This document shows positions 4,618 through 9,178 of a stretch of DNA of 64,000 nt, piece after piece. The notes beneath the pieces were generated by a model. That model did not search any database and was not told the DNA's origin. It saw only the letters and a program-made list of their open reading frames with translations. The position numbers and the translations under genes are program-made. The number at the start of each line of letters is the position of its first letter. Positions within the stretch are counted from its first letter, which is position 1. Source of the DNA: a virus; the IMG/VR virus record IMGVR_UViG_3300043420_000984, positions 1-64,000 of that record. The stretch is one strand, 5' to 3'.

Positions 4618-5292
4618 GTGTCTATAGATAGTTTCCTGGGTACTATTGCTGCTAACGGCGGGATGTCGTTCAGCAATAACTTTGTTGTGAGATTTCTTAA
4701 CCCACCAATTACTCCTCCTGGTGGTCAAGCTGGAGACTACTTTGAGTATTTTTGTAGCGAAGCACAATTACCAAACACTAATACCGCTCAAGGTCAAATA
4801 AACGGAATATATCTTGGTAGCGGATCGATTCAATACCCACACACCAGAGTATTCACAGAAATTCAGCTTGGATTTTTATGTGATGCTAACATGTCGGCAT
4901 TAAAGTTTCTTCAAGACTGGGTTGATTATATTTTTAACGAGCAAGGAACTAATCAAACTGCAAAGTCACTATCACAAATGCAGTCTCTTGCATATGGACC
5001 AATCAGAGATGAAAATAGAAATGTTCGATTAAAATATAGAGATCAATATGCTTGTAATATTGCAATAACTAAAACTGAAACTGGTCCTAGATCAACAACA
5101 GAAAGGGCACCAATCACATATATCCTAGAGAAAGCATATCCATTTGCTATTGATGCTGTTCCTCTACAGTTTGGATCATCTCAAATTACTCAAGTAACAG
5201 CACAGTTCTCATATATGAGACATTATGTTATTAAAAATGATATCACTTCGAACAGGGGTGATATAAAAGGATTGACAGATTTGTACAAATAG
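4618..5292 (+). CDS. Tail-tube-fold baseplate protein (gp19/gp54-like)
   Basis: A 224 aa protein with the outline of T4 tube proteins: an N-terminal SIDSFLGTIAANGG and NNFVVRF strand, a central FTEIQLGFLCDANMSALKFL region with WVDYI, and a C-terminal AQFSYMRHYV strand. It fits the gp19 fold; from its position among baseplate genes a tube-initiator (gp54) role is plausible. The start is GTG 4618, since the first residues fit the fold; ATG 4663 would remove them. An AGGT lies upstream as a weak ribosome site. Confidence 0.65.
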   Translation: MSIDSFLGTIAANGGMSFSNNFVVRFLNPPITPPGGQAGDYFEYFCSEAQLPNTNTAQGQINGIYLGSGSIQYPHTRVFTEIQLGFLCDANMSALKFLQDWVDYIFNEQGTNQTAKSLSQMQSLAYGPIRDENRNVRLKYRDQYACNIAITKTETGPRSTTERAPITYILEKAYPFAIDAVPLQFGSSQITQVTAQFSYMRHYVIKNDITSNRGDIKGLTDLYK

Positions 5293-5394: not shown

Positions 5395-6108
5395 ATGGCA
5401 TTACCACAAGTTGCTCTTCCAACTTATGAGTTGGAAATTCCTTCTAATGGAAAGAAAATTAAATATCGTCCGTTTGTTGTAAAAGAAGAGAAGCTTCTTT
5501 TGCTGGCACTAGAAACAAATGACGAGAAAGAAATCGAAAATGCTGTAAGAAATCTTCTCAAAGGATGTATTCAAACTCGTGTGAAGTTAGACGAGTTAGC
5601 ATCTTTTGATTTGGAATATATCTTCCTCAACATTCGTGCTGTATCAGTTGGTGAAGTTGTCGAGATGAATATTACATGTGAAGATGATGGAGCAACACAG
5701 GTTCGTTACAACCTCAATCTGACAGATGTTAAGGTTACCAAACCAGAAGGTCATAGTAATAAAATTATGATATCTGATACGATGGGTGTGATTATGAAGT
5801 ACCCATCGTTCGATGAGTTTGTTAAGATCTCAATCATCGGTCAGTCACCAACTGCAGATAATGTTATTCAGATTATGGCAAACTGCATCGATCAGATCTT
5901 TGAAGGTGAAGAAGTATATGATAGTTCTACGACTAGCAAGAAAGAATTTGTTGAATTTCTAGAAGGACTTACAAATCAACAGTTCGAAGATATTCAAAAG
6001 TTCTTTGATGATACTCCAAGATTAGAACATTCATTTAAGATCAGAAATCCAAATACTGGTGTGGAGAATGATGTAACGATTTCTGGGTTATCCAATTTTT
6101 TCGCATAG
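5395..6108 (+). CDS. 26: gp26 baseplate hub protein / tail assembly chaperone
   Basis: A 237 aa protein of the T4_baseplate (gp26) family; the N-terminus has IKYRPFVVKEEKLLLLALET, typical of the family. In T4, gp26 and gp51 act in hub assembly. The gene ends in AAT TTT TTC GCA TAG, which contains a canonical T TTT TTC slippery heptamer at 6096-6102, an 8-base spacer and an 8 bp hairpin (6111-6118 with 6127-6134). A -1 shift would join it to the downstream frame and give a 298 aa fusion. It lies two frames upstream of the tape-measure-like gene, as the G/GT chaperone pair does in lambda-type phages. Confidence 0.85.
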   Translation: MALPQVALPTYELEIPSNGKKIKYRPFVVKEEKLLLLALETNDEKEIENAVRNLLKGCIQTRVKLDELASFDLEYIFLNIRAVSVGEVVEMNITCEDDGATQVRYNLNLTDVKVTKPEGHSNKIMISDTMGVIMKYPSFDEFVKISIIGQSPTADNVIQIMANCIDQIFEGEEVYDSSTTSKKEFVEFLEGLTNQQFEDIQKFFDDTPRLEHSFKIRNPNTGVENDVTISGLSNFFA

Positions 6109-6134
6109 CACTCTTCCACAATACGCTGGAAGGG
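6096..6134 (+). promoter_or_regulatory. Probable programmed -1 ribosomal frameshift signal
   Basis: Slippery heptamer T TTT TTC (6096-6102) in the gp26 frame, then an 8-base spacer, then a stem CTCTTCCA (6111-6118) with TGGAAGGG (6127-6134), eight pairs including one G-U, and an 8-base loop. This is standard geometry for bacterial -1 frameshifting. Confidence 0.8.
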
Positions 6135-6290
6135 TACTATAAAACCAACTTTGCTTTGATGCAGCACCATAAATATAGCTTGACTGAGATTGAAAATATG
6201 ATGCCTTGGGAGAGACAAGTTTATACTAGTCTCTTAATGCAATATCTTGAACAAGTCAAACAAGAACAGCAAAAAGCAGCACAGCGGTAA
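6102..6290 (+). CDS. 51: gp51-like extension read by -1 frameshift from gp26
   Basis: The -1 frame continues for 62 codons after the slippery site and ends at TAA 6288-6290. It encodes ALFHNTLEGYYKTNFALMQH, then YSLTEIENMMPWERQVY and a glutamine-rich helix. The short-helix plus PWERxxY pattern is typical of tail assembly chaperone second domains and of the gp51 position. The conserved part begins before any ATG in this frame (the first is at 6159), which supports expression by frameshifting rather than by independent initiation. The stop overlaps the next start (TAATG). Confidence 0.75.
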   Translation, partial: RIALFHNTLEGYYKTNFALMQHHKYSLTEIENMMPWERQVYTSLLMQYLEQVKQEQQKAAQR

Positions 6291-9178
6291 TGGCACACGG
6301 TTTCCTAGCATATGAACCAGTATCGGGAGAAAGTCCTTTAGTTAACTTTGCCAAGAAAAAGTTAAAAGAAGGACTTAAAGCTTTATGGGGAAAATTCCAA
6401 AAGACTAGTGGATCTTTAGTAAAAAGTTCTGGTGGTCAAGTACAGTATGATGCCAATCCTCAAGGTGTAACAGTAAAAGATGTAACACAACCAGAACCAG
6501 CAGCCAAAAAAATGTTTTCTGGCACAACTGCCAGAGCACTTGGAGCAGGAATTGGATCTATTAGTAAACAAGAACCATCAGCAATTCCAGGTGGAACGAG
6601 TGGAGGAATTGCTACTAGACCTGGAGGATCATTTACTGAATTACCAGGAATTTCTGCTGCTTCTGGTGGATTGAATGCAGAAACATTTTTTAAGCAGGCA
6701 ACAACTGGTGTTGGATCATCTGGTGAGTATTTGTCAAATGCCCAGAGAAGAGAAGCATTTATCAAATCTCGCCAAGAAGGAGTAAAAACTGCAGAAGCTT
6801 CTGCATCTGCTCCTCCAATTTCACCAGATAGTGGAGTTGATATTGTCGCTGCAGTAAACAGAAACACGCAAATGATCGTGTCTCTGGTTGAAGCAGTCAA
6901 GGCACAAACAAAAAATGATAGTAACCTAGTAGAAAAGCAAATTCAGGGTCAAGAAACCTTGATGCTTCGCGCTGCTGCTAGAGATGAAGAGGCATCCTTA
7001 GAACAAGGAAGTGATCTCTCTGGTTTTATGACACCAGAGAATTTTGCAAAAAGAAAAAAGAACGAAGAAAAGAAAGAAACTGGTAGTAAGCTAAAAGAAT
7101 TCTTTAGAGGTCCAAACCCATTCAAAAAGGATGAGGGATGTGGTTGTAGTCCTATCATGCCTGGTCCTGGTGGACGCGGACCAATCCTAGGAGGACCCCC
7201 AGGAGGCGGCGGACTGCCTATCCCAGACTATGTTGATCAGTATCGTGATATGAACCGCCGCCCTGGCAGCAGACTTGGTGGTGGCGCTCCTGTGACCCGT
7301 AGAGCGGGTGGTGGAAGGAGAGCAACCCGTCTTGCCACTAAGATCGGCGGTAAGGGAGCTGGTAAAGCAGTAGCAAAAGGTCTAGGTAAATTTGGTGCTA
7401 AGAGAATTCCAGGATTAGGATTACTTGCTGGTATCGCTTTTGGTGCTGAGAGAGCGATGAAAGGAGATTTTCTAGGTGCTGCTGGAGAAGTTGCTTCTGG
7501 TGCTCTGGGTCCAGCAGGATTTGCTATTGATGCTGGATTAGCAGCAAGAGATGCTGGTCTAACTCCATTTGCGGAAGGTGGTATTGTAACTAGTCCAGTT
7601 GCTGGATTAGTTGGTGAAGCGGGTAACGAAGGTATTTTCCCACTAGAAGGTAAGCGTGGAGAGAAGACATTTAGAATGTTTGGTGAAGGTGTATTCCAGG
7701 CACAGAAAGATAATGATAAAGATTTTGCTAAGTTACAGTCGATGGGACTGAAGCAATATTATGAGAGAGAAGGTGGTTTCAAGAAAATGGGTGAAGGATT
7801 GAAAGGATTTTTTGAAAGCCTTGCTGGTGGTATTGCTTCTTTATTTGGTGGTGCTGCTAATGCGGGAACTCTAGATCAAGCTGGAGATTATCTTGGTGGC
7901 GGAGATTTTTCTGGTAATAGTGCTCAAGATCAGGCGATGAATTATTTCATCAGTCAAGGATTATCTAAGGATCAAGCAGCGGGTATTGTTGGAAACTTGA
8001 TGCAAGAATCTACTGCCGCTCTTGATCCAAAAGCAAATAATGGAACTCACCGTGGAATAGCTCAGTGGGATAAAAATAGATGGGCAAACTTTGAAAAATT
8101 TGCTAAGAAAAAAGGATTAGATGTAAATACTAGAGAAGCACAACTCCAGTGGATTATGGAAGAAATGAGAACTGGTGATGGTGGACTTGGTATTGAGAGA
8201 TTCAAGAAAACTAAAACTGCGGCAGAAGCAGCTGCTCTATTTGTAAAAGACTATGAAAGATCTGGAGAAAAACCAGGACAAGCTGGATATGATGCAAGAA
8301 TTAGAAATGCTAATACACTCGCAACTAGACAAATAACTGGAGGTGGGGGACCTGGGAGAGGTGGTGGATCTTCATCTGCTTTAGCAAATGCTGCAGCGCG
8401 TTTGAAGGGAATGTCAACAAAAGATAGTCCAGATGGTGGTGAAAATGGTTGTGTCTGGGCTGTAAACAAAGTATATAAAGCTGCTGGAATTACGCCTCCG
8501 TGGGGATCATCTGTGTATGTTCCAGATGCCGAAAAGAAAATGATTGGATCTGGATACCAACAGGTTGGTTATGGCCAGAGACAACCTGGCGATGTTATGG
8601 TAATGTATGATAGACAATCACCACCACAAGCACATATTGGTGTTGTTTTGCCAAATGGTAATATTCTTTCCAATTCGTCAAGTAAAGCAAAATTTGCTTG
8701 GGAAGCTTCTCCAGAAGAATATAATAGGTATTATGGAGCACAGGGAAAAATTTATAGAATGCCTGGTGGAGCTAGTGCTAGTACTATAGCTAGAAATAGA
8801 GGAAATCAATCTACAGCGGCGGCGCCAGCGCAACCATTATCAACAAATGGCAATCCAAACGGCAATCCAAATGCTATGTCTCCTCTATTCCAAAGACCTG
8901 CAGCTAATAAACCTGCTGCAGCAGGAGTAACACCAAGTCCTTTATTTAATATGTCTGCTGCTAACGCAAATACTGGCACACCTATGATGGCAACATCTCA
9001 GCAAGTTGCTATGGCATCTATGAGTGGTGGAGCAGCACCAACTGTTATTAATAACTATTACACAAGTGCTGGTGGTAGTGGCGGTGGAGTAAATCCAAAC
9101 GGTGTTTCTCCTGGTATTGGTATGGAACAAACTGGCACAGCAGTATTCCAAGATCTAAGAATTAGGGCACTAGCATAA
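6290..9178 (+). CDS. Tape-measure-like tail protein with lysozyme and NlpC/P60-like domains
   Basis: A 962 aa glycine- and alanine-rich structural protein. Residues about 340-470 hold hydrophobic stretches and the motif AEGGIVTSPVAGLVGEAGNE, common near the ends of tape measure proteins. Residues about 545-670 form a phage tail lysozyme-type domain (GIVGNLMQES, then GIAQWDKNRW), with glutamate near 572 as candidate catalytic residue. Residues about 710-830 look like an NlpC/P60-type cysteine peptidase, with Cys near 718 (NGCVWAVNKVYKAAG), QPGDVMVMY and His near 781 (AHIGVVLPNG). The tail end is low complexity. In the place of T4 gp29, it probably sets tail length and carries wall-cutting activity. 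It is coupled on both sides by TAATG overlaps. Confidence 0.75.
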   Translation: MAHGFLAYEPVSGESPLVNFAKKKLKEGLKALWGKFQKTSGSLVKSSGGQVQYDANPQGVTVKDVTQPEPAAKKMFSGTTARALGAGIGSISKQEPSAIPGGTSGGIATRPGGSFTELPGISAASGGLNAETFFKQATTGVGSSGEYLSNAQRREAFIKSRQEGVKTAEASASAPPISPDSGVDIVAAVNRNTQMIVSLVEAVKAQTKNDSNLVEKQIQGQETLMLRAAARDEEASLEQGSDLSGFMTPENFAKRKKNEEKKETGSKLKEFFRGPNPFKKDEGCGCSPIMPGPGGRGPILGGPPGGGGLPIPDYVDQYRDMNRRPGSRLGGGAPVTRRAGGGRRATRLATKIGGKGAGKAVAKGLGKFGAKRIPGLGLLAGIAFGAERAMKGDFLGAAGEVASGALGPAGFAIDAGLAARDAGLTPFAEGGIVTSPVAGLVGEAGNEGIFPLEGKRGEKTFRMFGEGVFQAQKDNDKDFAKLQSMGLKQYYEREGGFKKMGEGLKGFFESLAGGIASLFGGAANAGTLDQAGDYLGGGDFSGNSAQDQAMNYFISQGLSKDQAAGIVGNLMQESTAALDPKANNGTHRGIAQWDKNRWANFEKFAKKKGLDVNTREAQLQWIMEEMRTGDGGLGIERFKKTKTAAEAAALFVKDYERSGEKPGQAGYDARIRNANTLATRQITGGGGPGRGGGSSSALANAAARLKGMSTKDSPDGGENGCVWAVNKVYKAAGITPPWGSSVYVPDAEKKMIGSGYQQVGYGQRQPGDVMVMYDRQSPPQAHIGVVLPNGNILSNSSSKAKFAWEASPEEYNRYYGAQGKIYRMPGGASASTIARNRGNQSTAAAPAQPLSTNGNPNGNPNAMSPLFQRPAANKPAAAGVTPSPLFNMSAANANTGTPMMATSQQVAMASMSGGAAPTVINNYYTSAGGSGGGVNPNGVSPGIGMEQTGTAVFQDLRIRALA

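Follow-up and report, generated by a model that had tools for sequence, protein, structure and literature searches.

A poly-T slippery heptamer predicted to join gp26 to a gp51-like domain in a probable tail assembly chaperone of a cyanomyovirus-like genome

Introduction

Gene 26 of a virus whose tail genes match those of cyanomyoviruses is followed, in the -1 frame, by a gp51-like coding segment, which raises the question of whether the two frames specify one tail protein made in two lengths by slippage of the ribosome, as occurs with the G and GT proteins of other phages. G-T frameshifting has been described as widely conserved, with T4 as the exception (Atkins 2016, PMC5009743). More recently, the tail chaperones of T4-like phages were identified by Vladimirov, Gautam and Davidson (2022, Virology 566:9-15), as reported in PMC10885494 and PMC12846349. 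The second of these papers, citing that study, refers to poly-T slip sites in the TAC-N genes of T4-like phages, and the first attributes to it a two-gene arrangement (short plus fused-long) in some of them. As far as the work is described in these citing papers, the 2022 identification and the poly-T slip sites mean that the locus examined here is not new in kind: poly-T slip sites are common to both, no essential difference between them is established, and the finding is one more well-supported instance of a known device, the idea of which has been in print since 2022. A direct report was not found in the literature on a gp26/gp51 frameshift or on cyanophage tail chaperones.

According to the comparative analysis presented here, a -1 slip at T TTT TTC very probably lets the locus specify both a short and a long form of a tail assembly chaperone.

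The locus and its genomic setting

The DNA analysed, hereafter the window, consists of positions 1-64,000 of the virus record IMGVR_UViG_3300043420_000984, which holds 91,486 bases in total. The nearest annotated relatives are the Synechococcus phages S-RSM4, ACG-2014e/i and S-WAM2, with a DNA identity of 77-79%. The features of the locus are listed in Table 1.

Table 1. Features of the gp26/extension locus and its neighbours (positions in the window).
Feature	Position	Strand	Evidence
Tail tube protein gene, 224 aa, directly 5' of gp26	4618..5292	+	Pfam PF23849 Phage_TTP_2 E 3.2e-91; PHROG_45 tail tube
Gene 26 (gp26), short tail assembly chaperone (putative G / TAC-N counterpart), 237 aa	5395..6108	+	PF12322 T4_baseplate E 5.4e-73; PHROG_150
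Slippery heptamer T TTT TTC	6096..6102	+	Sequence; gp26 phase T TTT TTC GCA TAG
Spacer, 7 nt, includes gp26 stop TAG 6106-6108	6103..6109	+	Sequence
Putative stimulatory stem-loop, arms 6110-6118 / 6127-6135, 9 bp, 8-nt loop	6110..6135	+	Computed fold
Weaker lower stem, 4 bp	6105-6108/6137-6140	+	58-nt fold
-1 frame extension (T-like / TAC-C domain), 62 residues (6102-6287) + TAA 6288-6290	6102..6290	+	PHROG_634, PHROG_150, coding signature
Predicted frameshift product gp26-extension, 298 aa (GT / TAC-NC counterpart)	5395..6290	+	End-to-end alignment with T4 gp51
Tape-measure-like protein with tail lysozyme domain, 962 aa	6290..9178	+	PHROG_9570, PF18013

Gene 26 and its extension sit between a PF23849 tail tube gene on the 5' side and a tape-measure-like gene on the 3' side, the ATG of which overlaps the TAA that ends the -1 frame. 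A preliminary description of this DNA had placed the pair directly ahead of a tape-measure-like gene, and this is what is found; the order of tube, gp26/extension and tape measure is shared by the window and most of its relatives. The assignment of the 962-aa product as the tape measure is made from moderate profile matches, with PHROG_9570 (tape measure) at E 1.1e-26 over residues 361-670, PF18013 (Phage_lysozyme2) at E 4.7e-27, and RcGTA_tape at E 0.0047 only. By eye, the C-terminal part of this protein (window 8400-8760, CVWAVNKVYKAAG...AHIGVVLPNG) resembles a second peptidoglycan-cleaving domain, of the CHAP type, beside the tail lysozyme domain. In Synechococcus phage BUCT-ZZ01 (L099, 3252-6135), the genes that come after gp26/gp51 are those of a late sigma factor and a recombination endonuclease, not a tape-measure gene.

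The slippery heptamer and its conservation

The presence of T TTT TTC near the gp26 stop, from which the preliminary description started, is confirmed. The sequence is an X XXY YYZ heptamer in the 0-frame phase, lies within the overlap of both frames, and ends one codon ahead of the gp26 stop TAG. Related loci were gathered from IMG/VR with five gp26 queries (the window, S-PM2, Melnitz-2, PX29 and RL2RES), together with named phages. Conservation of the site, which had been named beforehand as support for a frameshift, is nearly complete in this set: T TTT TTN appears in identical phase in 263 of the 267 related loci with a readable junction, starting 7, 10 or 13 bases 5' of the gp26 stop. The carriers include the Kyanoviridae, where all the loci examined retain the slippery site, as well as Methylophilales phage Melnitz-2, Aeromonas PX29, Vibrio K566 and EniLVp02, Stenotrophomonas Yut3, Cronobacter LPCS28, Sinorhizobium phiM7, Agrobacterium Atu_ph04, and Rhizobium RL2RES.

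The codons around the slip site point in the same direction. The codon ahead of the TTT of the heptamer is always NNT (AAT, AGT, TCT, GAT, GCT or ACT), despite the NNC synonym available for each of these residues, and the A-site codon varies among TTC, TTT, TTA and TTG, so that the residue in the 0 frame can be Phe or Leu with no loss of the six T. In a test based on the codon usage of each gene, T was found at the two wobble sites in every one of the 19 clusters (less than 50% identical and treated as independent), with a rough probability of 1e-10 that is conditional on the clusters retaining the site and excludes the few groups devoid of the motif.

The heptamer is lacking in the Ackermannviridae (selz, K751, IME250 and Ds3CZ) and in Vibrio K355/K474, where just half of the site is left, either T TTC or T TTT. 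Their loci (L091, L100, L283 and L284 in the Ackermannviridae, and L097 and L285 in Vibrio K355 and K474) show a homologous -1 extension, the sequence ATT TTC or CTT TTC/TTT, and a first ATG at +2 or +35, counted in nt past the first base of the gp26 stop.

The stem-loop downstream of the slip site

In the window, a hairpin begins 7 nt past the heptamer, inside the 5-9 nt range in which a stimulatory structure is sought. Its computed fold consists of a 9-bp stem, including one G-U pair, with -10.8 kcal/mol and a z of -4.26. The preliminary description had correctly noticed the hairpin, although the sizes given for it (a spacer of 8 bases and a stem of 8 bp) need to be corrected. Relative to synonymous recodings of the -1 frame, the hairpin reaches a z of -4.58 in the window and a mean of -2.23 over 102 loci, indicating that it is conserved beyond coding need. 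In a scan by position of 58 loci, the structure signal peaks at the hairpin (z -1.72), with values of about -0.1 to -0.5 within gp26 and of -0.3 to -0.8 farther into the extension.

The stems have unrelated sequences in different phage groups, being CTCTTCCA/TGGAAGGG in one group and AGTATGGCTCA/TGAGTCATACT in another, while a third group holds GTTCTATAATA/TATTATAGAAC in a wider register. Wobble positions are almost invariant inside the stems and variable in the loops and downstream. The stems are nearly invariant within each group, and the evidence for the hairpin is the constraint on synonymous sites together with the replacement of whole stems between groups.

A Shine-Dalgarno-like stimulator 5' of the slip site is present on average across the loci (z -0.67, versus 0.14 in the control). 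In the window, no strong internal stimulator of this type was found upstream of the heptamer, and this element was dropped from the explanation of the window. Four other loci (L092, L121, L093 and L002) carry GGAGGG or GGAGGGG about 9-12 nt 5' of the heptamer, as a possible extra stimulator that the window does not have.

The -1 frame extension as coding sequence

The 62-residue extension and the 298-aa fusion announced in the preliminary description are both encoded in the window, the sequence across the junction being ...SGLSNFFRIALFH.... The lack of a good start for the extension was likewise borne out: the first ATG of the -1 frame in the window lies at +53, inside the conserved core, no GTG or TTG appears before +50, and none of ATG, GTG or TTG is present within 54 nt after the slip.

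Start-less loci of this kind were used to examine coding constraint. Among 78 loci (56 distinct segments) in which ATG, GTG and TTG are missing from at least the first 54 nt past the slip, no stop interrupts the -1 frame, and 71% of the single-base codon differences are synonymous in this frame, compared with 18% and 14% in the other two. The coding signature is confined to the -1 frame in loci that offer it no start of its own, and this pattern of substitution identifies the extension as coding sequence. In addition, the extension matches PHROG_634 (baseplate hub assembly catalyst) with an E of 8.5e-28 and positions 238-278 of PHROG_150, its C-terminal end; a search of NCBIfam returned nothing for gp26 or the extension. 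The -1 relation between the frames was discarded as evidence by itself, since ATGA and TAATG overlaps always give -1.

The annotation of this segment differs among cyanophages. The public records of ACG-2014e (L280), S-H9-1 (L281) and ACG-2014d (L282) contain no gene at the conserved extension, and those of S-RSM4 and P-HM2 annotate it with internal starts that cut away part of the conserved domain.

Comparison with T4 gp26 and gp51

In T4, genes 26 and 51 are separate paralogous genes on opposite strands, for which no shift is needed, whereas the window holds a single locus with a predicted frameshift. T4 gp51 (249 aa) aligns to residues 7-298 of the predicted fusion, across the junction (hhalign probability 99.9, E 1e-30), and its C-terminus aligns with the extension alone; it matches PHROG_150 over nearly its full length and PF12322 over residues 1-201. 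T4 gp26 is homologous to the short form over its whole length and ends at the same FF (hhalign probability 99.5). Its gene has no heptamer, reading GAG TTC TTT. Since gp51 aligns with the fusion and gp26 with the short form, T4 carries G-like and GT-like forms as two genes side by side; by sequence homology, gp51 alone, a full-length paralogue fused in frame, is the GT counterpart in T4, and gp26 is the G counterpart. Such a pair of genes without a heptamer is the layout described in PMC10885494 with reference to Vladimirov et al. (2022).

The T4-type gene 51 is broken mid-gene by a change of frame in L277 (1501-2246), from a T4-like record of 167,034 bp, which may be a sequencing error or a real split. 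The proteins of Klebsiella phage KPV15 in BFVD are likewise two fragments, of 120 and 107 aa.

Resemblance to known tail assembly chaperones

The lambda proteins gpG and gpGT are a short and a C-terminally extended form whose genes lie between those of the tail tube and the tape measure, and the gene order in the window is alike. On the other hand, no sequence similarity between the two systems was seen, the G-like domain of the window is larger (237 aa), a hairpin follows the site in the window, and the slip site of lambda is G GGA AAG instead of T TTT TTC.

The AlphaFold2 model of gp26 (pLDDT 87.6) was compared with the PDB by means of Foldseek. The matches of highest probability were 3FGX (Rbstp2171; 0.75) and 2OB9 (HK97 gp13; 0.54 and 0.41), spanning 51-73 columns, so that only part of the domain overlaps, with E-values of 1.3-2.2, which are not significant. 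Both structures are tail assembly chaperones (PMC9603447). The model of the T4-type gp51 (pLDDT 90.7) gave no match in the PDB, and in BFVD it retrieved mainly gp26/gp51 relatives and phage proteins annotated as baseplate, together with one label of "tape measure chaperone". No TAC family was matched by the window proteins in Pfam, and sequence searches of the PDB yielded no credible homologue. A chaperone role in tail assembly is likely, and this reading is carried mainly by the layout and the published identification. The frameshift layout provides one protein in a short form and in a form extended at the C-terminus, as is characteristic of G/GT, with T4 gp51 as the fused homologue. The proposal made in the preliminary description, that gp26/gp51 is the counterpart of G/GT, is therefore supported by gene order, by the short/long pair, and by the homology of T4 gp51 to the whole fusion, and weakly by the fold.

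Alternative readings of the junction

The public records of S-RSM4, S-PM2 and P-HM2 annotate gp51 as a separate small protein, which would be produced from an internal start by ribosomes that reinitiate after terminating at the gp26 stop; the run of T would then be incidental. In fact, eight of the 19 heptamer-bearing clusters have an ATG at +2, a classic coupling overlap, and an ATG overlapping the gp26 stop in the absence of the heptamer is found in Vibrio K355/K474 and Dickeya Ds3CZ. Homologues of this last type had been indicated in advance as evidence against frameshifting, and they do exist, but only in these distant phages and not among the Kyanoviridae examined. In the window, the first ATG falls within the conserved domain and the coding constraint reaches upstream of it; the start annotated in P-HM2 leaves about 30 aa and would lose half of that domain. 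Moreover, the heptamer and its phase are kept even where a clade has an ATG overlapping that stop, and T4 gp51 is fused in frame through the junction. A separate gp51 is therefore considered highly improbable. Transcriptional slippage, in which one base would be added at the T run in some mRNAs and the frames joined in this way, would profit from the runs of T6 to T8 present in all the heptamer-bearing loci, where one extra T leads to the -1 frame. However, most of the runs have just six or seven T, shorter than those usually needed for this process, all 263 are in the T TTT TTN phase required by tandem tRNA slippage, and a stem-loop is conserved immediately 3' of them, making this explanation extremely improbable.

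Both routes could also coexist, with the frameshift fusion accompanied by a free gp51 arising from coupled initiation wherever a clade has an ATG overlapping the stop of gp26. The heptamer coincides with an ATG at +2 in the eight clusters mentioned above (S-CRM01, K566, EniLVp02, Yut3, phiM7, Atu_ph04, RL2RES and L264), but this ATG could simply encode Met, and dual output is inapplicable to the window given its first ATG at +53; we regard it as unlikely. Rather unlikely, too, is the broader suggestion that such clades make three products (short form, fusion and free C-terminal domain) and that phages of the Ackermannviridae type use a half site for the shift (T TTC following ATT or CTT).

Proposed mechanism and implications

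The preferred reading remains a -1 slip of the ribosome at T TTT TTC; that ribosomes shift here, with what frequency, and that the products act as chaperones we infer from the sequence. In this model, the majority of ribosomes would read gene 26 to its TAG and release a short form of 237 aa. The stem-loop 7 nt 3' would hold up a minority, and these would slip back one base while two tRNA-Phe occupy T TTT TTC, re-pairing on TTT TTT; they would thus bypass the TAG and add 62 residues to yield a long form of 298 aa. If lambda gpG/gpGT is taken as the model, the short form would coat the tape-measure protein of the adjacent gene, and the C-terminal domain of the rare long form would recruit the tail tube protein, so that the ratio between both forms, set by the frequency of slipping, would matter in tail assembly.

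As cyanophage records leave out the extension or assign it a wrong start, the long chaperone is missing from annotated proteomes, and it would escape mass-spectrometry searches against them. If the three-product and half-site readings were true, such phages would represent intermediate states between frameshifting and the two hard-wired genes of T4. With the locus read as proposed, the T4 superfamily would join the phages that use the G/GT device, contrary to the older statement of T4 as an exception (Atkins 2016, PMC5009743).
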